Both the position numbers and the translations under genes were made by a program. A stretch of DNA of 64,000 nt from Chloroflexota bacterium (GTDB taxonomy: Bacteria > Chloroflexota > Anaerolineae > Promineifilales > Promineifilaceae), in the NCBI GenBank assembly GCA_013112725.1, contig JABFFZ010000003.1:1-64000 (forward strand), in the 5' to 3' direction. The notes under the pieces were generated by a model. The model was not told where the DNA came from and ran no database searches. It saw only the letters and a list, made by a program, of their open reading frames with translations. Below are positions 1 through 9,611 of the stretch, in pieces (the stretch's first letter is position 1; the number at the start of each line of letters is the position of its first letter).

Positions 1-2
1 AT

Positions 3-113
3 TTCAAGCAGGCCATTGAAGACTGTTTGGCGGAGGTGTCAGGCAAGTTCAAGGAGCAGTTGTCCAGCTTGCTTACGCTTAATTTTCAGACTTTGGAAAA
101 TGTCAGTTTATGA
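3..113 (+). pseudogene. IS630-family transposase, C-terminal fragment
   Basis: The first bases are open in frame 3 up to a TGA at 111-113 and encode about 36 residues ending in LTLNFQTLENVSL. This resembles the tail of IS630-family (DDE_3) transposases, which commonly end in a helical segment followed by a SLLTLNF-like stretch. Only the 3' end is inside the window, so whether the full gene is intact cannot be judged. It abuts the first cassette and implies an insertion sequence at the left edge of the array. The assignment rests on memory of the family and on a short segment. Confidence 0.5.
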
Positions 114-268
114 CCTTTTTCAGTATAATTATTGTGCTTTCCAAAGAATACAGGCAGGAGCACGCCCAATACATCAAGTATCTGAGCGAGAGATATTTGT
201 AATTCGCAGGTTGTTGTAAAATTGGGCAAAACACTTTTAATAGCAAAAGAGTCTTCAAGTCCTACCGT
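114..268. other. Gene-less remainder between the transposase end and the first attC
   Basis: No credible coding region is visible here; the short open frames show no recognisable protein. It is AT-rich and probably contains the right end of the insertion sequence plus the tail of a disrupted cassette. The partner end of the insertion sequence lies outside the window, so terminal repeats cannot be matched. Confidence 0.4.
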
Positions 269-397
269 GCCTAACAAAGCGTGCAGTGGATTGGCGGGAT
301 TCGTCGCCATTTTCAAGCATTTTTCTGGCTTCGGGCTTTTCCTGCTCTCAAACATTTTCCAAGCCCGCCCGCCAACCACTAACGCAAGCCGTTAGAC
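269..397 (+). repeat. attC site 1 (129 bp)
   Basis: R'' core GCCTAAC at 269-275 and R' core GTTAGAC at 391-397 flank two imperfectly complementary arms (around 280-298 and 366-390). The spacing and 7-bp cores match integron attC sites, in which recombination occurs inside the R' core. It is closely similar in length and sequence to the site at 4363-4491, including the unpaired central part, so these two cassettes probably came from the same attC lineage. Confidence 0.85.
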
Positions 398-424
398 CAC
401 GCAAGGAACGGGAGTGCTGCACAC

Positions 425-1525
425 GTGACTTTGGACCAGCACATTGAGGATATTCGAGCCGGTCTTAGGGCAGGACGCTTCAGCAACGAGGCATCCGTAT
501 CGCAGGGAATCGTTCTGCGTCTGCTCCACGCTCTTTCATGGCCGGCGTATGACACACAGATCGTGTGCCCAGAATATGCCCTTGAAGGACGCCGTGTTGA
601 TTTCGCGCTCTGTCATCCGCCCGGAAAACCAATCGCTTTTGTCGAGGTGAAGCAGGTTGGACAAAGCGAAGGCGCAGAGCGCCAACTTTTTGAATATGCA
701 TTCCACACGGGTGTGCCTCTCGCGATACTGACGGATGGTCGCGAATGGAATTTCTTTCTTCCTGGGGAACAGGGCGACTACGGCGAACGTCGGGTTTACA
801 AACTCGATATCCTCGAACGTGACGTATCAGAGAGTGTGTCCCGGTTAACGCGCTATCTCAAGTACGACGCCATCGTTTCCGGCGCTGCGCTGAGCGCAGC
901 GCGCGAAGACTACCGAAACGTTTCGCGAGAACGACAAATTAAGGACACGCTTCCTGAAGCGTGGCGAAAACTCGTCGAAGAAGAGGACGATCTCCTGCTC
1001 GAAATCATAGCCGATCGGGTCGAAAACCTTTGTGGCTTCAAGCCTGACCCCGATACCGTCGCAAAATTCCTCAAGGACCAAGTCGCCACGAGGGCTCACG
1101 GAATACAACTGCCACCGATACAACCGCCGCGCCCAGAACCACAGCCATTGCCGCCACGTGGTCGTCCGATTGTGGCCCCCGGCCCGGTTGGATTCACTCT
1201 ACAGGGACAACATTTTCCTGCACGCAATGCGCGTGAAGTGCTGATAAGAGTGTTCGAAATTCTCAGTTCGCGTGACGCCACGTTCTTGGACCGCTTTGCT
1301 GCACTCCCGACACATGGTCGCAGGCGCCGGTACCTCGCTCAGAATCCAGAAGATCTTTACCCGGGTCGCCCCGACTTGGCGCGCGATCACTCAGCGAAAC
1401 TTAGTTCAGGTTGGTGGCTCGGGACTAACGTCAGCCGCGCTGCGATCAGCCGCATCATTGAAATGGCGTGCGATGTGGCTAGCTTGCGGTTTGGTCGAGA
1501 TTTACAGATTAGCCTCGGTGAATGA
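425..1525 (+). CDS. HsdR N-terminal-like PD-(D/E)XK nuclease (integron cassette)
   Basis: A 366-residue protein starting at GTG 425. Residues about 45-100 carry a PD-(D/E)XK-like core: RRVDFAL, then AFVEVKQVG, as in the N-terminal nuclease domain of type I restriction subunit R and its stand-alone relatives. A proline-rich linker follows at about 230-250, then a conserved-looking C-terminal domain of unknown function with GWWLGTNVSR. There is no helicase motor, so it is not a complete HsdR. It is the only gene in its cassette, between attC 1 and attC 2. A DNA-cleaving, possibly defensive, role is inferred; the substrate is unknown. Confidence 0.7.
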   Translation: MTLDQHIEDIRAGLRAGRFSNEASVSQGIVLRLLHALSWPAYDTQIVCPEYALEGRRVDFALCHPPGKPIAFVEVKQVGQSEGAERQLFEYAFHTGVPLAILTDGREWNFFLPGEQGDYGERRVYKLDILERDVSESVSRLTRYLKYDAIVSGAALSAAREDYRNVSRERQIKDTLPEAWRKLVEEEDDLLLEIIADRVENLCGFKPDPDTVAKFLKDQVATRAHGIQLPPIQPPRPEPQPLPPRGRPIVAPGPVGFTLQGQHFPARNAREVLIRVFEILSSRDATFLDRFAALPTHGRRRRYLAQNPEDLYPGRPDLARDHSAKLSSGWWLGTNVSRAAISRIIEMACDVASLRFGRDLQISLGE

Positions 1526-1531
1526 AGCGTG

Positions 1532-1592
1532 GTCTAACCCTTGCGTGCAGCCGACGCCCGCAAGCGGGCGCGGCTGACGCACGCCGTTCGGC
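1532..1592 (+). repeat. attC site 2 (61 bp)
   Basis: R'' core GTCTAAC at 1532-1538 and R' core GTTCGGC at 1586-1592. The arms between them (GCGTGCAGCCGACGCCCGC and its imperfect complement) meet at a tiny loop. It closes the HsdR-like cassette; the next cassette begins within the R' core. Confidence 0.85.
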
Positions 1593-1623
1593 GGCACGTT
1601 GCAAGCAGTAGTAAGGGAAATCA

Positions 1624-2913
1624 ATGTCAAGCAGAATCAAAATCCCTGAAACAGAAATAAAAATTCTTTTTGCAAAATCGGGTAATTTGTGTGCTTTTCC
1701 TTCGTGCCAAAACCCTATTATTGCTAATGAAGGAGATGGAGATAAGCCATTGGCAGAGATGGCTCATATCATTGCATATCAAGACAACGGTCCCCGCTCC
1801 GACCCAAGCATTCCAATATCTGAAAGAAATAAAGCATCTAACCTTATTCTCTTTTGTCCAACCCACCATACAATAGTTGACAAATTTGAATATCAATACA
1901 ACGCACAAGTGCTTCGAGAAATGAAACGATTGCATGAAGCACGCTTTATTCCACCAAAAGAAAAGCAGATTCAATCAGAGTTAAAAAGCGAATTTTTATA
2001 CGCCTCCTTTTTGCCAATTTCGCGTCTGCCTTTTTTTGTCTTTTCAGCGGTGACACCATACAGAAAGAGTAATATTCTTGAGTTGTTTGACATTCTCAAT
2101 ACACAAGAGCATAAGGGCGCACTTTATGCATTTGAATTAAGAGACCAACGCCTTTACACATTTTTTGATTTGCGAGAACCCAATAACCCATTTCGTGGAG
2201 CATACGACCAAACTACCGTAGAAGTATTAAAGGCAACTGATTTATGGGAAAACCCCGATTCTCATAGGCTTTATATTGCGTTGCTCAATAGGTCACTAAC
2301 CAGTTATCTAAAAAAACGCGGGGTTGCTTACGACGCAGAACATTTTAGGCATTACTTCTTGCCTGATAAGACAACCGTAGAACGGAAGTTTACTTACAAA
2401 AGTCTTTCTGGTAAAAATACGTCTAAATCTATTGTTCACAATCCAACAACAAAGTTAACAGGCTTACCAAAATCATATTGGATACACCTTGCTGCTAATT
2501 TATCATTTCAGCAAGTAGAAGAACGTCAGTGGGTTTTTACAATTCGCCCAGAACGCCACTTGACTAAAGACGGTTACGATACTTATACACACTCTTCAAT
2601 TGGAAGCAAGATTACCAGAATAAAATCGAAGATGTATAACTGGGAATATTTACAGGAAATTCAATTGTGGCGTGAATTCTTAACCAACGCAAAGCCTCGT
2701 TTGTATTTATCGTTTGGAAAACAATCTATCGTCATCGAAAATGTACTCCTAAAGGAAGAAATACGATGGATAGGCGTTCCTGATGACGAAAAAGATTTTG
2801 TTTCTCAACAACACCCCGAAGACCTCTTTAGTTTTGCTGAAAGCCAGTCTTTTGAGAATGCCGAAGATGATTTTGATGGCGATTTATTTCTAGGTGAATT
2901 TGAAGATGTCTAA
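1624..2913 (+). CDS. HNH nuclease-APAZ protein, partner of short Argonaute
   Basis: A 429-residue protein with a good ribosome binding site (AAGGGA) before ATG 1624. Residues about 20-90 are an HNH nuclease with zinc-binding pattern: C23, C28, the AH48 catalytic histidine, N73 and C78-x2-H81. Residues about 125-400 look like an APAZ domain, the N-terminal-like region that accompanies short prokaryotic Argonautes: a YFLP segment, FTYKSLSGKN, SYWIHLAANLSF, then TKDGYDTYTHSS and an MYNWEYLQEIQLW stretch. Its stop overlaps the start of the Argonaute gene, so the two are translationally coupled. By analogy with APAZ effectors, the HNH domain is probably a DNase switched on by guide-directed target recognition; recent literature calls HNH-type systems SPARHA. 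Confidence 0.85.
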   Translation: MSSRIKIPETEIKILFAKSGNLCAFPSCQNPIIANEGDGDKPLAEMAHIIAYQDNGPRSDPSIPISERNKASNLILFCPTHHTIVDKFEYQYNAQVLREMKRLHEARFIPPKEKQIQSELKSEFLYASFLPISRLPFFVFSAVTPYRKSNILELFDILNTQEHKGALYAFELRDQRLYTFFDLREPNNPFRGAYDQTTVEVLKATDLWENPDSHRLYIALLNRSLTSYLKKRGVAYDAEHFRHYFLPDKTTVERKFTYKSLSGKNTSKSIVHNPTTKLTGLPKSYWIHLAANLSFQQVEERQWVFTIRPERHLTKDGYDTYTHSSIGSKITRIKSKMYNWEYLQEIQLWREFLTNAKPRLYLSFGKQSIVIENVLLKEEIRWIGVPDDEKDFVSQQHPEDLFSFAESQSFENAEDDFDGDLFLGEFEDV

Positions 2914-4351
2914 CCACCTCCATAGAAATTCTTTTTTACACTCCCCTCAAATGACGCTTCAGTGGATTGAAGAGCCACAGTTATCTTTTGGCAATGGTCA
3001 AACTCACACCAATCCTAAAATTGGAATTCCGCTTTTTGGTCCAAAATCGCTTAATACATCAAGACATAAAAGCCAAGTACATATTGGTTTTGTCGGAGAG
3101 TCAGACGCAATAGAAAAAGTCAAGCGTTTCCTATCAGAATGTTCCAAAGGCATTCTTGCGATTGACATTGAAAACGGCTCGCAGTCATTTCCTGGAATCT
3201 CTACCGAGCAGGGATTTGGGTTTGAAATAGTATTGTCGGATTCCTTGGTACAAAAAATAACATCTTCCGAGAAAGAACGTATCAAGAGAAACGCATCCGC
3301 AGAATTTCAGTTTTCCGCCACATTAGACCTAATCGAAGAAAAAGTTAGCATACTTTGTGAACAAGACCATCCACTTGATTATATTTTCATTGTCTTGACA
3401 GAGAGCGTTTACAATGACATTAGAGTTGTAAAAACTTTCGACCCCATATCAGGTAAAGGGCGAGTTACAAGAAATTTCAGGCGGGCATTAAAAGCACGGT
3501 TGATGAAATATAACAAGCCCACACAAATTATTCGAGTTTCAACAACCGAACCTACCAGCGACGAGAGAGACATGCAAGATTTAGCAACCCGTGCTTGGAA
3601 TATCATTACAGGAATGTATTTCAAGGTAGGCAGGCTTCCTTGGGGTCCAACGGGGCTAGAACCAGCAACTTGCTTTGTTGGAATAAGTTTCTTTCGCCCA
3701 TTTGGCGAACCAAATTATATGAGAGCAAGCATTGCACAGGCATTTAACGAGCATGGCGATGGACTTGTCCTACGTGGACAAAAATTTAAATGGGATGATG
3801 AGATAGGCAAATCACCCCACCTAACTCAGACTTTAGCCAACCAACTGGTGACCGAAGTTCTACACCGCTATCAAATGGAACTCAAACAGAAGCCACGGCG
3901 AGTAGTTATCTATAAATCGTCACGCTTTGAACCTGCCGAGCGAGATGGTTTCAAAAACGCTCTCATGGAAGTCCCTGAATACGATTTGGTGACAGTTGGA
4001 ACATCAGGAAATTTTCGTTTATTCAGGTCGGGCGAATATCCACCACTTCGTGGAACAGTAATGAATGTCGGGAAAAACTATTTTCTTTACACAACTGGCT
4101 ATATTCCTGAATTAAAAAAATATCCGCATGGGCATGTACCAGCTCCGTTGCGGATTGTTGACCATTACGGCGATACTTCAAAAAATCAATTGCTACAAGA
4201 ACTTTTTGTATTGACAAAAATGAACTGGAATACAGCCAATGTTGATGGTGCATTCCCAATTACTTTACAATTTGCCCGTTTAGTAGGAGAAATACTAAAA
4301 GAGTTTCCCGAAGATGAAACACCGAATCCAAAATATATCTACTACATGTAA
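2906..4351 (+). CDS. Short prokaryotic Argonaute (MID-PIWI)
   Basis: About 481 residues from ATG 2906, which overlaps the HNH-APAZ stop by 8 bp; GTG 2894 and ATG 2951 are alternative starts. Residues about 60-245 form the MID part (NFRRALKARL, KPTQIIRVST), and about 255-481 the PIWI part. Where active Argonautes carry the first catalytic aspartate (GxD), this protein reads CFVGISFF, so PIWI is predicted to be slicing-inactive, as is usual for short Argonautes. The C-terminal half keeps RRVVIYKSSRFEPAE, a TKMNWNTANVDGAFPIT guide-binding segment and a YYM end. It lacks PAZ and N domains, which the upstream APAZ protein replaces. The predicted role is guide-directed recognition of invading nucleic acid followed by activation of the HNH partner. 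Confidence 0.88.
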   Translation: MSNHLHRNSFLHSPQMTLQWIEEPQLSFGNGQTHTNPKIGIPLFGPKSLNTSRHKSQVHIGFVGESDAIEKVKRFLSECSKGILAIDIENGSQSFPGISTEQGFGFEIVLSDSLVQKITSSEKERIKRNASAEFQFSATLDLIEEKVSILCEQDHPLDYIFIVLTESVYNDIRVVKTFDPISGKGRVTRNFRRALKARLMKYNKPTQIIRVSTTEPTSDERDMQDLATRAWNIITGMYFKVGRLPWGPTGLEPATCFVGISFFRPFGEPNYMRASIAQAFNEHGDGLVLRGQKFKWDDEIGKSPHLTQTLANQLVTEVLHRYQMELKQKPRRVVIYKSSRFEPAERDGFKNALMEVPEYDLVTVGTSGNFRLFRSGEYPPLRGTVMNVGKNYFLYTTGYIPELKKYPHGHVPAPLRIVDHYGDTSKNQLLQELFVLTKMNWNTANVDGAFPITLQFARLVGEILKEFPEDETPNPKYIYYM

Positions 4352-4362
4352 AGCAAAAAGCC

Positions 4363-4491
4363 GCCGAACAAAGCGTGCAGCCGACTGGTGGGATTCGTCC
4401 CGACTTACAAGCATCTTTCTGGCTTCGAGTTTTTTCTGCTCTCGGAGCGAATCCCAGCCCACCCACCAGCGGCTAACGCAAACCGTTAGGC
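4363..4491 (+). repeat. attC site 3 (129 bp)
   Basis: R'' core GCCGAAC at 4363-4369 and R' core GTTAGGC at 4485-4491, with complementary arms ending in GGTGGG and CCCACC. It is the same length as attC 1 and very similar to it, even across the central unpaired region. It follows the Argonaute stop by 11 bp, which places both Argonaute-system genes in one cassette (about 1587-4485). Confidence 0.88.
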
Positions 4492-4519
4492 CGACAGCCA
4501 AACATACGAGAGGAAACTC

Positions 4520-5158
4520 ATGAGCAAAGTATTCGTCAACATTTCACTTAGCCTCGATGGCTACATGGCGCCGGAAGGCATGACCTTGGAGAATTGGGAC
4601 AGACCCGATTACAACGACTGGGGCGCCAAGTGGGGCGCGCTGATGGGATGGATTTTCAATCAGCAGTACTTCCGCGAGAACCTAAAGCTCGGGCCAGGAG
4701 GAGAGACTGGTCCGGTCAATGACATGCTGCGCAGCACCACGGAGCGCATCGGCGCCAACATCATGGGCAAGCGAATGTTCGATGGCGGTGAGCGCGGTTG
4801 GCCGGAAGAAGCTCCGTTTCACACACCGGTATACGTTCTTACCCATGAGAAGCGCGAACCCTGGGTGCGCCCCGGCGGGACGACCTTTTACTTCATCAAT
4901 GACGGGCCGGAGCGTGCCCTAGATCTGGCTCGGGCGTCCGCAGGCAGTCGTGATATTCGTATCGCGGGTGGATCGGATGTGATCCAGCAGTACCTGAACT
5001 TGGGTGTCGTCGACGAGCTGGAGATCGCCTTAGCCCCCGTGTTGTTCGGTGGCGGGCGGCGTCTTTTCGAAAACCTACGCGAGCCCTTGCCGCAGTTTCG
5101 CATTGACAAGGTTCTTGATAGTCCAGCCGCAACACACTTGCGCTATGTGCGTCAGTGA
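4520..5158 (+). CDS. Dihydrofolate reductase-family (RibD C-terminal-like) protein
   Basis: A 212-residue protein with AGGAAA before ATG 4520. The start KVFVNISLSLDGYMA, the NIMGKRMFDGG segment and the end RIAGGSDVIQQYL ... PVLFGGGRRLF are hallmarks of the RibD C-terminal (YyaP/YwjB-like) reductase family, which binds NAD(P)H in a dihydrofolate-reductase fold. The substrate is unknown. This family is frequent among integron cassettes. It is the single gene of its cassette, between attC 3 and attC 4, and is GC-richer than the Argonaute cassette, suggesting a different donor. Confidence 0.85.
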   Translation: MSKVFVNISLSLDGYMAPEGMTLENWDRPDYNDWGAKWGALMGWIFNQQYFRENLKLGPGGETGPVNDMLRSTTERIGANIMGKRMFDGGERGWPEEAPFHTPVYVLTHEKREPWVRPGGTTFYFINDGPERALDLARASAGSRDIRIAGGSDVIQQYLNLGVVDELEIALAPVLFGGGRRLFENLREPLPQFRIDKVLDSPAATHLRYVRQ

Positions 5159-5163
5159 TTGCG

Positions 5164-5224
5164 GCCCAACGCTCAGCATGCAGCGGACGGCGCTGCGCGC
5201 CGCCGCTGATGCTGAGCGTTGGGC
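5164..5224 (+). repeat. attC site 4 (61 bp)
   Basis: R'' core GCCCAAC at 5164-5170 and R' core GTTGGGC at 5218-5224 are perfect complements. The inner arms around CAGCGGACGGCG and CGCCGCCGCTG fold over a short loop. It starts 5 bp after the reductase stop. Confidence 0.88.
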
Positions 5225-5273
5225 GGCTTCAAGCCCTCACTCGCAGGGCATTACAGATTTAGAAGGTTGAATT

Positions 5274-5978
5274 ATGGCTACTTTTGTTCTCATTCATGGC
5301 ATGTGGCATGGCGGTTGGTGCTGGAAAAAGGTTACGCCCCTCTTGCAGGACGCTGGGCATAAAGTCAACATCGTCACGCTAACGGGTGTTGGAGAGCGGG
5401 CGCATTTACATTATCCTGATATTGACATGAACACGCACATACAAGATGTTGTAGGTGTTTTGGAATACGAGAATCTTAATCAAGTGATTCTTGTTGGTCA
5501 TAGTTTGGCTGGATTTATGGCTCCCGCTGTGGCAGAACGTACCCCTGAGCGGATAGCGCATATCGTTAATCTCGATGGCGTAATCCCCACGAATGGCAAA
5601 GCATTCAAGGATTTAATGCCAAGTTTTTGGGATGATTTCCGACAGCGTGGACAGGCTGCTGGTGATGAATGGTGGTCCCCCCCAATTCGGGAGTGGACAT
5701 TTGGCGTAACCGGCGATGACCTTGAATGGATGATGTCGAAGTTAACCCCACATCCGCTTAAGTCATGGGAAACGCCTCTTTTCTTTACTAATCCTGCGGC
5801 AGGTTCCATACCACACACATTTATTCATTGTATTGAAGGGGCCTCGCCAGATGAAACAGAAAAACAAAAGAAGGAGTGTGTGAATATGGGCTGGCAATAT
5901 CGCACACTATCCACAGGACATGACGCAATGATAACTGCCCCAAAGGAATTAACCGAATTACTACTTGAGTTTGTATGA
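5274..5978 (+). CDS. Alpha/beta-fold hydrolase (EstC/hydroxynitrile lyase-like)
   Basis: A 234-residue protein with AGAAGG upstream of ATG 5274. The N-terminus LIHGMWHGGWCWKKVTPLL supplies the oxyanion strand, VGHSLAGF is the nucleophile elbow, and STGHDAMITAP near the C-terminus contains the catalytic histidine. This arrangement is typical of the small plant-esterase-like group (salicylate esterase, hydroxynitrile lyase, EstC, pyrethroid hydrolase). The substrate cannot be predicted. It is a single-gene cassette between attC 4 and attC 5 with no signal peptide, so a cytoplasmic enzyme. Confidence 0.88.
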   Translation: MATFVLIHGMWHGGWCWKKVTPLLQDAGHKVNIVTLTGVGERAHLHYPDIDMNTHIQDVVGVLEYENLNQVILVGHSLAGFMAPAVAERTPERIAHIVNLDGVIPTNGKAFKDLMPSFWDDFRQRGQAAGDEWWSPPIREWTFGVTGDDLEWMMSKLTPHPLKSWETPLFFTNPAAGSIPHTFIHCIEGASPDETEKQKKECVNMGWQYRTLSTGHDAMITAPKELTELLLEFV

Positions 5979-5995
5979 GTTCCCCCAAAACCGCC

Positions 5996-6066
5996 GCCCA
6001 ACGGTTTGCGTGCAGCCGACTCGCCTCCGCTGCGCTTCGGCGAGCGGCTGACGCAAACCGTTAGCC
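5996..6066 (+). repeat. attC site 5 (71 bp)
   Basis: R'' core GCCCAAC at 5996-6002 and R' core GTTAGCC at 6060-6066. The GGTTTGCGTGCAGCCGACTCGCC arm, quoted here in part, pairs with the GGCGAGCGGCTGACGCAAACC arm on the right. It separates the hydrolase cassette from the restriction-modification cassette. Confidence 0.87.
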
Positions 6067-6100
6067 CGCCCATCCAAATCCAAGATGGTACAATACAGCA

Positions 6101-6883
6101 ATGGATAAAAACGATTTTTTGAATGTGCTTCAGACAGAAGTAGCAACGTTTAATTCAGCGGTTTCCACTCCAAATGGCGACTGGATTATCAAGGGTTTTA
6201 TTGACATAGCCAAGAACATTTACACCATTTCGGTGGACACAAAAGTTATCTCAAAAATCATGGAACTTTTGTTGTTCCCAGAGCTTGCGCACTTCGCAGA
6301 AAAGCATGGCTTGAAAATGGTCTTATCGGAACAGCAGAACTTTTATCCAGACATAAGTTTTGTAGATGATGATGGTCACCGTTTTGCACTTGACTTGAAG
6401 AGTACTTACAGAGTTGATAGCAGCCGCGTGAATGGTATGACACTCGGGGCTTTTACTGGATACTTCCGAGAAAGGAATAGCACAAAGAACATAACTTTTC
6501 CCTACGGTTCTTATAGCGGACACTTTGTTCTGGGCGTGATTTATTCAAAGACTGATGACTTGATTGACGAGCGAAGAAGATACACTCTCGATGAACTTGA
6601 ACGGATTACATCTGTCATCAGAGACTTTCAATTCTTTGCTCAAGAAAAATATCGCATTGCGTCTGATCGTCCAGGGAGTGGCAATACCAAGAATATTGGT
6701 TCAGTCATGGAGATTGATAAGCTTGTAAATGGGTCTGGTCCGTTTGCTCCGTTAGGAGAAGATGTTTTTGATGACTACTGGATGTATTACTTGACCAAAG
6801 ATATGGCAAGAGCAGCGGAATTGAAGCGGCCGCCTTATACCAATTTGCGCAGTTATTTGAAATACAAAGGCTTGGCAAAGTGA
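6101..6883 (+). CDS. EcoRV-like type II restriction endonuclease
   Basis: A 260-residue protein that reads as a clear EcoRV relative along its length: SVDTKVISKIMELL, EKHGLKMVLSEQQNFYPD, ALDLKSTYR and GSGNTKNIGS, then a DYWMYY segment near the C-terminus. D84, D98 and K100 match the EcoRV catalytic D74, D90 and K92, and E55 falls at the EcoRV E45 position. It should act as a homodimeric DNase; recognition of GATATC is inferred from the family and from its methyltransferase. Its stop overlaps the methyltransferase start by 4 bp. It is AT-rich compared with the backbone and carried as a cassette between attC 5 and a bare core site. Confidence 0.92.
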   Translation: MDKNDFLNVLQTEVATFNSAVSTPNGDWIIKGFIDIAKNIYTISVDTKVISKIMELLLFPELAHFAEKHGLKMVLSEQQNFYPDISFVDDDGHRFALDLKSTYRVDSSRVNGMTLGAFTGYFRERNSTKNITFPYGSYSGHFVLGVIYSKTDDLIDERRRYTLDELERITSVIRDFQFFAQEKYRIASDRPGSGNTKNIGSVMEIDKLVNGSGPFAPLGEDVFDDYWMYYLTKDMARAAELKRPPYTNLRSYLKYKGLAK

Positions 6884-7824
6884 TTGTTCTTCAAGGTCTA
6901 CCGCGCACAGTGAAGCAAGTAATTGTCCCCCCGATAAAGTGTCAGGGGATTAAAACTAAACTCGTCAAATTCATCTTGGGCAATATCTCCTGGAATGGCA
7001 AAGGGCGATGGATAGAACCGTTTCTTGGGTCAGGTGTCGTTTTGTTCAATGTGCAGCCAGAACGTGCATTAGTCAATGATATCAATCCCCACATTATCAG
7101 ACTGTATCAGATGATTTATGATGGGAGTTTGTCGCCAGACGAAGTAAGAAAGTATTTAACAGCAGAAGGTAAGAAATTGCTAGTCAATGGCGAAGATTAC
7201 TATTATGCAGTAAGAGAACGCTTCAACAAGAGTGGAGATTCATTAGACTTCATTTTTCTCAACAGATCGTGTTTTAATGGGATAATGCGCTTTAATAGTA
7301 AAGGGGAGTTTAATGTTCCATTTTGTCGCAAACCTGACCGCTTTCGTCAGGCCTATGTGACCAAGATAGTTAATCAGATTTCACAGATACGTAAAATCAT
7401 GCAGGGCAAAGATTGGGAGTTTCGTGTTGGAGATTGGCGAGACGTTCTTGAGAATGTCACAGAAGACGATTTTGTATATCTTGACCCGCCTTACATTGGC
7501 AGACATACAGATTATTATCAGCAATGGTCGGAAGATGACGCGGCTGATTTGGCGATAATTGCTCGGAATTTGCTGTGCGGTTTTGCATTGTCTATGTGGA
7601 AGGAAAATAAATATCGCCTAAATCCACATATTGCTTACTATTGGGATGGATTAGTCGAAAGAACCTTCACTCATTTTTATCATGTAGGTTCGACCGAAAA
7701 TCTCAGAAACTCAATGGAAGAAGCTTTGTTGATAAAGCCTGGTTATGAAGCAGAGAAAATTAAAACTACGAAAGCTGCCAAGCCTGTCCAATTGACGTTT
7801 GCTTTACATGAACAGGCAGGCTAA
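6880..7824 (+). CDS. M.EcoRV-like DNA adenine-N6 methyltransferase
   Basis: A 314-residue protein starting at GTG 6880, overlapping the endonuclease stop (GTGA). It carries VPPIKCQGIKTKLV near residue 17, the SAM-binding motif EPFLGSGVV at 46-54, FLNRSCFNGIMRFNSKG near 126-142 and the catalytic DPPY at 202-205, followed by IGRHTDYY. These match the D12/Dam-like class and specifically M.EcoRV, which protects GATATC on adenine. With the upstream endonuclease it forms a complete restriction-modification unit within one cassette. The C-terminal end diverges and may be slightly extended. Confidence 0.92.
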   Translation: MIVLQGLPRTVKQVIVPPIKCQGIKTKLVKFILGNISWNGKGRWIEPFLGSGVVLFNVQPERALVNDINPHIIRLYQMIYDGSLSPDEVRKYLTAEGKKLLVNGEDYYYAVRERFNKSGDSLDFIFLNRSCFNGIMRFNSKGEFNVPFCRKPDRFRQAYVTKIVNQISQIRKIMQGKDWEFRVGDWRDVLENVTEDDFVYLDPPYIGRHTDYYQQWSEDDAADLAIIARNLLCGFALSMWKENKYRLNPHIAYYWDGLVERTFTHFYHVGSTENLRNSMEEALLIKPGYEAEKIKTTKAAKPVQLTFALHEQAG

Positions 7825-7830
7825 TAAATA

Positions 7831-7837
7831 GTTGGGC
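7831..7837 (+). repeat. Bare integron core site (R' without its attC arms)
   Basis: GTTGGGC sits 6 bp after the methyltransferase stop and matches the R' consensus GTTRRRY, but no R'' core or stem precedes it. The attC of the restriction-modification cassette seems to have been deleted, which would fix this cassette to its right-hand neighbour. Confidence 0.5.
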
Positions 7838-7855
7838 GGTCAAGAGCATAGCCCT

Positions 7856-8530
7856 ATGATTAGCCACGAGCACTACAACCGGATCGCCCGCGTCTTGCCT
7901 ATCTTACAGCGTGCCGACCCGCAACTGGTGCGCGAGTTCCAGCAGGCCGCCTTCTTTGCCCGCATCCCAACCGGCAAGGATGTGTTCGTCGAAGGCGACC
8001 GCACTGACGCAATTGCCTTATTGATTTCCGGGGTGGTGCGCGTCTATAAAATCGGTGAGACGGGCCGGGAGATTACCCTGTACCGCTTCGGCTTCGGCGA
8101 ATCCTGCATCCTGACCGCCAACGCCATTCTCAGCCAGCAGTCGTTTCCTGCAATTGCCACCGTCGAGCAGGAGGCCGAGGCGGTGATGATCCCTGCTGAT
8201 ACCTTTCGGGATTGGGTGCACCGCTACGACCTGTGGCGCGGCTTTGTCTTCGACCTGCTCTCACAACGCCTTACAAGCATAATGACTATCGTGGATGAGG
8301 TGGCCTTCCGCCGCGTGGACACGCGCGTCGCTTTGTTTCTACTGAATCGTAGCCGAATCCAGAACCCTATCCGCATCACCCATCAAGAAATCGCCGCTGA
8401 ACTGGGCAGTTCGCGTGAGGTCATCAGCCGCATCATTGAAGGCTTTGCCAATGAAGGACTGATTCGCCCGGCGCGCGGCATGGTCGAAATCCTAGATTTT
8501 GATTCCCTGCAAACTCGCTCCGTTATGTGA
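7856..8530 (+). CDS. Crp/Fnr-family transcriptional regulator
   Basis: About 224 residues from ATG 7856. Residues about 20-125 form a cyclic-nucleotide-binding-type beta barrel (VFVEGDRTDAIALLISG, TGREITLYRFGFGES). The C-terminal helix-turn-helix has HQEIAAELGSSREVISRIIEGF, the DNA-recognition segment typical of Crp/Fnr proteins. No N-terminal cysteine cluster is seen, so an oxygen-sensing Fe-S cluster is unlikely. The next gene encodes a YgaP-like membrane protein and is preceded by a palindrome (8532-8546) that may be its operator, so local control of that gene is likely. The ligand is unknown. Confidence 0.87.
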   Translation: MISHEHYNRIARVLPILQRADPQLVREFQQAAFFARIPTGKDVFVEGDRTDAIALLISGVVRVYKIGETGREITLYRFGFGESCILTANAILSQQSFPAIATVEQEAEAVMIPADTFRDWVHRYDLWRGFVFDLLSQRLTSIMTIVDEVAFRRVDTRVALFLLNRSRIQNPIRITHQEIAAELGSSREVISRIIEGFANEGLIRPARGMVEILDFDSLQTRSVM

Positions 8531-8531
8531 C

Positions 8532-8567
8532 TTTGTCACTGACAAAAATCTGACCATCTCCTATAAA
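8532..8567 (+). promoter_or_regulatory. Promoter with Crp/Fnr-like palindrome before the YgaP-like gene
   Basis: TTTGTC-ACT-GACAAA (8532-8546) is a perfect 6-bp dyad with a 3-nt centre. It overlaps a plausible -35 CTGACA (8539-8544), placed 17 bp before a -10 TATAAA (8562-8567). The geometry suggests repression or ligand-dependent control by the adjacent Crp/Fnr protein. Confidence 0.5.
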
Positions 8568-8608
8568 AGGGTCAAGATACAAACCCATTACCTAAAGGAG
8601 ATATTGAA

Positions 8609-8836
8609 ATGAACCCCTTCATCACATTCATGGCTTCCACCACTGGCCGCATCGTTCGCATTGCAGCGGGCGTCGCCTTGATCGCCTGGGGCTTGTTGGG
8701 CCTCGGCGGCACTACCGGCATTATCGTGGCTGTCGTCGGCGCAGTGCCGTTGCTGGCCGGACTATTCGACTTCTGCGTGTTCGCTCCGCTGTTTGGTTGC
8801 CCGTTAAGAGGCCCAAAGATTCGCGCGGGAAAGTAG
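8609..8836 (+). CDS. YgaP-like (DUF2892) small membrane protein
   Basis: A 75-residue protein with AAGGAG before ATG 8609. Two hydrophobic segments (about residues 15-32 and 36-56) are joined by a glycine-rich turn (GLLGLGGTTG). The C-terminus FDFCVFAPLFGCPLRG has two cysteines in the arrangement common in DUF2892 proteins, which often accompany rhodaneses or redox regulators. It follows the Crp/Fnr gene with its own promoter and a strong terminator downstream. The molecular role is unknown; a link to sulfur or redox stress is inferred from the family. Confidence 0.8.
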   Translation: MNPFITFMASTTGRIVRIAAGVALIAWGLLGLGGTTGIIVAVVGAVPLLAGLFDFCVFAPLFGCPLRGPKIRAGK

Positions 8837-8854
8837 CCACTTTCCTTCGCAACA

Positions 8855-8890
8855 AAAGGCATCACGCGGCAGCAAGCGTGGTGCCTTTTT
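8855..8890 (+). terminator. Rho-independent terminator after the YgaP-like gene
   Basis: The arms AAAGGCATCACGC (8855-8867) and GCGTGGTGCCTTTT (8876-8889) form a stem of about 13 bp with an 8-nt loop, followed by a T run. Confidence 0.85.
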
Positions 8891-8965
8891 TCTTTATGGA
8901 TACGCTCTTCTCTTTCACAACCATGCTATACTGCGAAATATTGAGCAGGCAAACCAGCAAACACC

Positions 8966-9093
8966 GTCCAACCACCGTTTGCATCCGACTCGGCTACCGC
9001 CGCGCCCTCGCGGGGTTTCGAGTAATTCCGGCGGGTCTTCCCCGCGAAGGAGTTTTTACTTCACCGCCGAGCGGGTGAAGCGAACCTTTGGGC
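8966..9093 (+). repeat. Degenerate attC-like site 6, end of the array
   Basis: GTCCAAC (8966-8972) fits the R'' consensus. The arm CCGTTTGCATCCGACTCGGC pairs imperfectly with the GCCGAGCGGGTGAAGCGAAC stretch at 9067-9086. The right core reads TTTGGGC (9087-9093), one base off GTTRRRY, so the site is probably decayed. The first ACGGCCGT of the backbone appears 40 bp later, marking the array boundary. Confidence 0.55.
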
Positions 9094-9167
9094 AATAGAT
9101 AAACCGGCAATAGGAAGTGATTCCCCTGCTAAACGGCCGTACCCCCAATCCCCTGGCCCCGCATCCG

Positions 9168-9611
9168 TCACCATGCCCCGATCCTATTAATCTCAAAACT
9201 ATGGGTCAGGTTGGCCACGCAGCGGATGGTGGCGGCGACGGAGCAGTATTTTTCCTCAGACAGGGCGATGGCGCGCTCCACTTTTTGCGGGTCTAGCTCC
9301 TCCCCTTCCACAATGTAATGCAGATGGATATCGGTGAACATGTATGGTGGCTCGGAGAGCTGCTTGCCCTCTACCTGCACGTACAGGTTTGTCAGCTTTT
9401 GCCGCTGCCGACCCAAAATCATCACCACATCATGTGACGAACAAGAGGCCAGGCTCAAAAGCAGCAGGTCAGACGGTTTCACCGCCTTCCATTCCTGCCA
9501 CTCTGGGTCATCATCCGGCCATGAACCGGCCATAATGACGTGACCGAAGGAGTCACGGCCGTAAAACAACTTGCTATCGGGGCCCGCCCATTTCAAGGCA
9601 ACATTACTCAT
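9168..9611 (-). CDS. OsmC-family peroxiredoxin-like protein
   Basis: A 147-residue cytoplasmic protein with AGGAG before its ATG at 9611. The two family cysteines are visible, C57 in [10 protein letters not shown] and C123 in KYCSVAATI, with the conserved [10 protein letters not shown] segment before the first. OsmC proteins reduce organic hydroperoxides as dimers using this cysteine pair. It is the first backbone gene to the right of the cassette array, on the opposite strand to the cassettes, and is followed by a hairpin of the tandem-word type at its 5' side. Confidence 0.88.

Follow-up and report, generated by a model that had tools for sequence, protein, structure and literature searches.

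The 64 kb at the start of contig C3 (JABFFZ010000003.1) from the 158-contig genome of a Chloroflexota bacterium (GCA_013112725.1), hereafter the window, carry two overlapping genes that encode an HNH-APAZ protein and a short prokaryotic Argonaute. They are flanked by sequences resembling the attC recombination sites of integrons. The question raised by this locus is whether an Argonaute-based immune system is carried there as a single unit that an integron integrase can move. We conclude, with a probability of roughly 0.8, that positions 1587–4485 are one integron cassette whose two products likely form a defence complex of the SPARHA type (short Argonaute, HNH-associated), whose HNH nuclease would be triggered by guided pairing with a target. 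The operon and its cassette, the neighbouring cassette genes, the attC and attI-type sites and the segment shared with another contig described below lie on the + strand of the window.

The cassette is 2,899 bp long. It extends from the cut point of attC2 (1532–1592), which belongs to the upstream HsdR_N-like cassette and serves as left border, to the cut point of its own site attC3 (4363–4491), both set by the G|TT rule. The first-pass annotation, which had proposed a single attC-bounded cassette for the operon, placed it at 1587–4491, almost exactly the same segment. Its GC content is 40.4% vs 55.7% for positions 9100–64000 of the window. Both R″ and R′ cores and a stem are present in attC3 on the right, and attC2 provides the recombination core on the left. 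A covariance model built from ten attC sites, three of which come from the window (attC2, attC4 and attC5), recovered an array of five attC sites and a degenerate sixth in positions 1–9500, each scoring better on the + strand or found there only. Site attC3 is in no training set; it has an E-value of 1.7e-5 with the ten-site model and of 1.4e-5 in a search of the complete 64 kb with the hold-out model R2, whose training set leaves out attC2 but contains attC4 and attC5. In the same R2 search attC2 was found at E 2.5e-10, and two further sites that are in no training set, attC1 (269–397) and attC6 (8966–9093), at 0.0016 and 1.4e-6, respectively; the best other matches had E-values of 0.0096 and 0.011. 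The sites attC4 (5164–5224) and attC5 (5996–6066) were used for training in R1, R2 and R3, the last being a second hold-out model introduced below. Bottom-strand folding compared with shuffled sequences gave z-scores of −2.9 for attC1, −3.2 for attC2 (flank taken as 1528–1602), −2.2 for attC3 (flank taken as 4362–4493), −8.6 for attC4 and −6.6 for attC5. Sites that fold better than shuffled sequences are thus found on both flanks of the operon, as the first-pass annotation had anticipated.

Individual sites have weak points. When compared to GTTRRRY (R′) and RYYYAAC (R″), which we take to be the core consensus, the R′ core of attC2 (GTTCGGC) and the R″ core of attC3 (GCCGAAC) each carry one mismatch. 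The minimum-energy fold of attC2 leaves its outer cores unpaired with each other, attC1 is the weakest-scoring attC, and the R′ core of attC6 lacks the G of the cut site. Sites attC3 and attC1 are 78% identical. A scan based on cores and arm pairing had overlooked attC3 and matched inside genes; it was replaced by the covariance models. An Rfam search of the window gave nothing at gathering thresholds.

Contig C106 of the same genome carries an intact integron integrase gene (1855–2802; 454.2 bits against a cut-off of 265), and a second copy, split over two frames, is found on C22. Outward from the intact gene, C106 first shows an attI-type core and a cassette of 202 aa that has no match in Pfam. 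These are followed by a toxin resembling HigB (PF05015, E 7.6e-18), encoded together with a helix-turn-helix protein, then by the attC of that cassette and the end of the contig. This end is identical over 127 bases to positions 4484–4610 of the window, the head of the cassette that follows the Argonaute cassette and whose gene (4520–5158) codes for a 212-aa RibD C-terminal-domain protein (PF01872, E 2.5e-12). The identity starts one base before the attC3 core GTTAGGC. A comparison of positions 132–7850 with the genome at E 1e-6 returned, besides the C106 end, only the segment itself, a paralogue on C32 and a palindromic self-match of attC4. The RibD_C cassette is therefore found in the assembly with two different left neighbours that switch at the integrase cut site, and since the shared 127 bases start at the attC3 core, this border was most likely a junction made by the integrase. 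Part of the population may lack the Argonaute cassette (and others), or else the RibD_C cassette may exist in duplicate; either arrangement would be a product of an integrase. The excisability proposed by the first-pass annotation gains support from this junction and from the intact integrase in the same genome, with the reservation that the enzyme is encoded on a contig other than that of the window.

The leader of the Argonaute cassette, from the attC cut point to the ATG, is 37 bases long, and a search for sigma-70-like promoters on the + strand of positions 130–2049 gave no match, although members of this phylum may use promoters of another type. The cassette looks promoterless and its expression consequently probably relies on read-through from upstream.

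The first gene (1624–2913) codes for a 429-aa protein with an HNH domain at about residues 6–108 followed by an APAZ region at about 115–400. The N-terminus is matched by Pfam HNH_2 (E 1.1e-4, 22.4 bits for a cut-off of 21) and by the PADLOC models PDC-M68A (E 3.3e-32, residues 6–108) and SAVED_HNH (E 2.5e-22, residues 4–108). The rest of the protein corresponds to the Argonaute-associated “Aga” models of PADLOC, the best with an E-value of 1.7e-30 over residues 87–391 and another covering 126–403. None of the profile libraries used gives the name APAZ to this C-terminal part; by sequence, its residues 192–356 match the DREN-APAZ chain of SPARDA (E 7.8e-4), and the alignment with SPARDA partners is confined to residues 134–356. 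Among solved structures the first match is PDB entry 9om4, whose title describes the filament form of the Acidithiobacillus caldus SPARHA. Chain A of this entry is matched by sequence over residues 13–423 of 429 (E 3.3e-77) and is also the best PDB match of the predicted model (pLDDT 84; Foldseek E 2.9e-24; 34% identity in the structural alignment), with a TM score of 0.58 when normalised to query length and of 0.90 when normalised to the resolved part of the target (273 residues). Residues C23, C28, H48, N73, C78, H81 and H82 are kept in 44 of 44 aligned sequences (the window protein and 43 sequences chosen from its 84 other database matches). Among them H48, N73 and H82 are presumably catalytic and C23, C28, C78 and H81 presumably zinc ligands. 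The protein is thus predicted from its sequence to be an HNH nuclease domain fused to APAZ with a complete set of HNH catalytic residues.

The second gene was listed as an open reading frame (ORF) spanning 2894–4351, but the ATG at 2906, overlapping the stop codon of the HNH-APAZ gene, is its likelier start and yields a 481-aa short Argonaute (2906–4351) composed of MID and PIWI domains only. A Pfam search gave no match to this protein and its identity was settled through PADLOC (pAgo_I, E 5e-151 over residues 20–485 in the numbering of the listed ORF) and the PDB, where the second chain of 9om4 is matched by sequence over residues 22–485 of 485 (E 1.2e-125). The predicted model (pLDDT 86) has chain B of 9om4 as best structural match (E 3.6e-50, TM scores of 0.89 and 0.91, 40% identity). 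The SPARDA Argonautes are matched by sequence with E-values from 2e-68 to 8e-59. The operon assignment of the first-pass annotation, which it had tied to profile matches of the proteins and to attC folding on the flanks, is thus upheld, both proteins also matching SPARHA chains. The combination with an HNH effector, which it had set apart from the better-known short Argonaute systems, already bears a name of its own, SPARHA.

It had further drawn attention to a serine in place of the first catalytic aspartate expected in PIWI. The serine is present, but it occupies this position of the motif in 35 of 36 aligned Argonautes (asparagine in the remaining one), the register being taken from the motif alone and not from a residue-by-residue alignment; the set comprises the window protein and 35 of 120 listed matches. 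Short Argonautes are described as catalytically inactive as a class in PMC10810196. The serine is a family trait and therefore does not single out the window protein, and its interpretation as a special inactivation of this Argonaute was rejected.

A search of 5.8 billion proteins, from which 3,813 candidates were retained, gave 85 matches at E 1e-10, including the window protein itself and a few partial sequences. The full-length protein was found in 2 of 400 genomes of the phylum (its own and G198; four more matches span the HNH part only), in 2 of 396 genomes of the class (its own and G718) and in one of 158 genomes of the class of G198, namely G198 itself. The G718 protein is identical to P0024 from Caldilineaceae bacterium SB0668_bin_21, Caldilineaceae being Chloroflexota. 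The Argonaute was detected in one of 59 genomes, its own, and in none of five congeners; integron integrases occur in 19 of 40 genomes, the present one counted. Phage records gave no DNA match to the operon, none of the 140 plasmid records with a protein match has a single place covering 80% of HNH-APAZ, and the nine loci found in viral contigs match only its first 135 residues, the HNH part.

Twelve SPARHA loci were inspected for attC sites (the window, L031–L039, L156 and L179). Sites are present on both sides of the operon in the window and in L156 (contig C36 of G198), and on the left side in L031, while L032 has a shared head and an attC remnant only (E 0.077 in a 4-kb search). L031 and L032 are contigs of metagenome-assembled genomes labelled Brevinema andersonii and Anaerolinea sp., respectively. 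With R3, trained without the L156 sites or any site from L031 or L032, the L156 borders have E-values of 1.7e-8 and 6.9e-7 and the L031 border of 5.3e-5. L156, L031 and L032 are 84–89% identical among themselves and 62–63% identical to the window; they align from G|TTGGG on and are unrelated upstream. They are a second SPARHA cassette lineage, spread across three genomes. At E < 0.01 attC sites were found at 3 of the 12 SPARHA loci (window, L156, L031), at 2 of 71 genome loci whose match is limited to the HNH part (L072 and L106 among L040–L110) and at none of the 9 viral loci. The model behind the count of three was trained on three L156 and three window sites, L156 and L031 being confirmed with R3. 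An enrichment of attC at SPARHA loci was considered and rejected: the window was chosen for its attC sites and L072 resembles a real cassette, so we claim recurrence and not enrichment.

Some of these loci have features of their own. In L156 (79–9857), about six attC sites form an array that includes the decayed SPARHA cassette together with a gene for a DNA methylase (PF01555); a search for an integron integrase in this genome gave no match. In L179 (4842–14212) a Caldilineaceae SPARHA pair is located between hsdM- and hsdS-type genes. Positions 5987–7025 of L072, from Desulfobacterales, carry a gene combining HNH with Shedu SduA_C, directly followed by an attC, just preceded by a GTTAGGC core and adjoining an hsdM-type gene; this is likely another defence cassette. 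In the Thiocapsa locus L106, where an HNH protein is encoded too, a strong attC (1651–1710) is present and two weaker candidates lie beyond it.

Several observations weigh against a mobile SPARHA cassette. No integrase match was found on contig C3, which starts in a repeat shared with nine other contigs, so that its link to the integron of C106 is inferred from the assembly. No attC was detected at 8 of the 12 SPARHA loci (L033–L039 and L179; the L033 contig ends inside the Argonaute gene, leaving its right flank unseen), hence SPARHA pairs are not generally carried in cassettes. In G198 the copy has decayed, with a stop in HNH-APAZ and a split Argonaute, which shows that carriage in a cassette does not ensure upkeep. 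Finally, the structural match to 9om4_A covers its 273 resolved residues and does not extend to the HNH fold. The pair could be an ordinary chromosomal defence system flanked by fixed hairpins, relics of a once mobile and now sedentary cassette. The missing integrase on C3, the core mismatches in attC2, attC3 and attC6 and the related L179 copy without attC would all fit such a history, as would the result for G198 and the genomes of L031 and L032, in which no integron integrase was found (this search gave no match anywhere, the same model having matched in other searches). We nevertheless consider it unlikely: the C106 end matches from the attC3 core on, behind another cassette, which suggests that this border was a junction in the sampled genome or population, and the genome retains an intact integrase. 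What the junction records is less clear-cut. There is slightly less than an even chance that it does not reflect excision and that the RibD_C cassette is simply present twice, since an exact overlap of 127 bases is expected of an assembly graph at any repeat and 127-base matches are likewise seen at the left end of the window. Such a duplication would leave the assignment of 1587–4485 as an integron cassette intact, as another copy with its start at the attC core would itself be a product of the integrase.

By analogy with its relatives, we infer that the HNH-APAZ/Argonaute pair of this cassette functions in defence. The presumably inactive PIWI protein would load short guide RNAs and pair with invader DNA, and this pairing would drive assembly of a filament. 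HNH domains clustered in the filament would go on to cut DNA of any sequence, and growth arrest or death of the cell would follow before the invader spreads. SPARDA filaments switch on a collateral nuclease (PMC12205087). The pair might instead cleave the guided target only (plasmid or phage DNA), in the manner of a targeted restriction system that spares the cell. The conserved HNH residues are compatible with this mode of action, and RNA-guided target cleavage is reported for a SMEK-APAZ short Argonaute in PMC10810196. It appears improbable, as the nuclease-type relatives (DUF4365/DREN), once they have recognised a target, degrade DNA whatever its sequence (PMC12205087 and PMC10810196) and the nearest structure is, by its title, a filament.

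For the SPARHA-type pair borne by the cassette, integron biology suggests that the integrase would act on the folded bottom strand of attC3 to excise, insert or reorder both genes as a unit, and bacteria could likely gain, lose or rearrange the immune system in a single step. Position in the array, through read-through expression, would set the amount of this self-damaging system that is made; the cassette might also be stored silent and woken by reshuffling, in line with what PMC12409362 describes. We put forward only tentatively the wider view that integrons bundle, exchange and rearrange a guide-programmed Argonaute immune system. In this view SPARHA cassettes would be in circulation in two or more independent lineages, the cassette found here would be retained by part of the cells and excised from the rest, and its position in the array would act as a volume control of a suicidal nuclease.

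The Argonaute cassette is part of a longer array. The upstream cassette gene (425–1525) codes for a 366-aa HsdR N-terminal-like protein (PF04313, E 1.4e-7) that stands alone in its cassette. Downstream of the RibD_C cassette are found an alpha/beta hydrolase gene (5274–5978; PF12697, E 8.8e-18) and one cassette (6101–7824) encoding an EcoRV-type restriction enzyme (6101–6883; PF09233, E 3.5e-111) and a D12 methyltransferase (6880–7824; PF02086, E 2.5e-45), a pair with a 65% paralogue on C32. An 18-base attI-type core (7822–7839), identical to the one beside intI on C106, takes the place of attC at the end of this restriction-modification cassette. In a 14-base form this core occurs at four places in the genome, the other three near an integrase gene or fragment. 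The region between the attI-type core and the degenerate attC6 (7832–9093) encodes a Crp-type regulator and a YgaP-like membrane-domain ORF and may be a further, now fixed cassette. The left end of the contig (1–131) is a repeat present at 99–100% in nine other contigs, perhaps a transposon end within the first cassette.

If the proposed reading is correct, a 2.9-kb two-gene system guided by nucleic acids and contained in one cassette would show that programmable immunity, too, can be moved by integrons, and this in two or more lineages of cassettes. Its leader seems to leave too little room for an ordinary promoter, and the cassette therefore lends itself to testing directly whether position in an integron tunes a defence harmful to the cell that makes it. 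An Argonaute as integron cassette was not found in the literature searched, which includes PMC12409362 and PMC12342005 but not the original integron-defence reports (Darracq, Getz, Kieffer).

Compared to the SPARHA of A. caldus, the window pair has the same two kinds of protein, matched along nearly their whole length and with 9om4 as best structural match of both models, but identities are 34% (HNH-APAZ) and 40% (Argonaute) and the window pair is an integron cassette. SPARDA shares a homologous Argonaute and APAZ region and a nuclease-type effector, the latter being DREN/DUF4365 instead of HNH; the filament-activated collateral nuclease is a property of SPARDA (PMC12205087). The anti-phage cassettes of Vibrio chromosomal integrons and of mobile integrons, as reviewed in PMC12409362, are likewise attC-bordered defence genes with position-dependent expression, and the window also holds an EcoRV-type restriction-modification cassette. 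The same review describes those cassettes as compact and streamlined, with no CRISPR-Cas, BREX or other system exceeding two genes among them. The present case is a 2.9-kb Argonaute system in a Chloroflexota genome, which with its two genes stays within the reported limit. The restriction-modification cassette has the attC-ORF-delta-attI layout of the delta-attI cassettes of class 1 and 2 integrons (PMC12901181), whereas its core is not a class 1 or 2 attI and its cargo is a restriction-modification pair, not a resistance gene. SPARHA is thus a known system, and integron-borne defence is known as well (PMC12409362); their combination did not appear in the literature searched.

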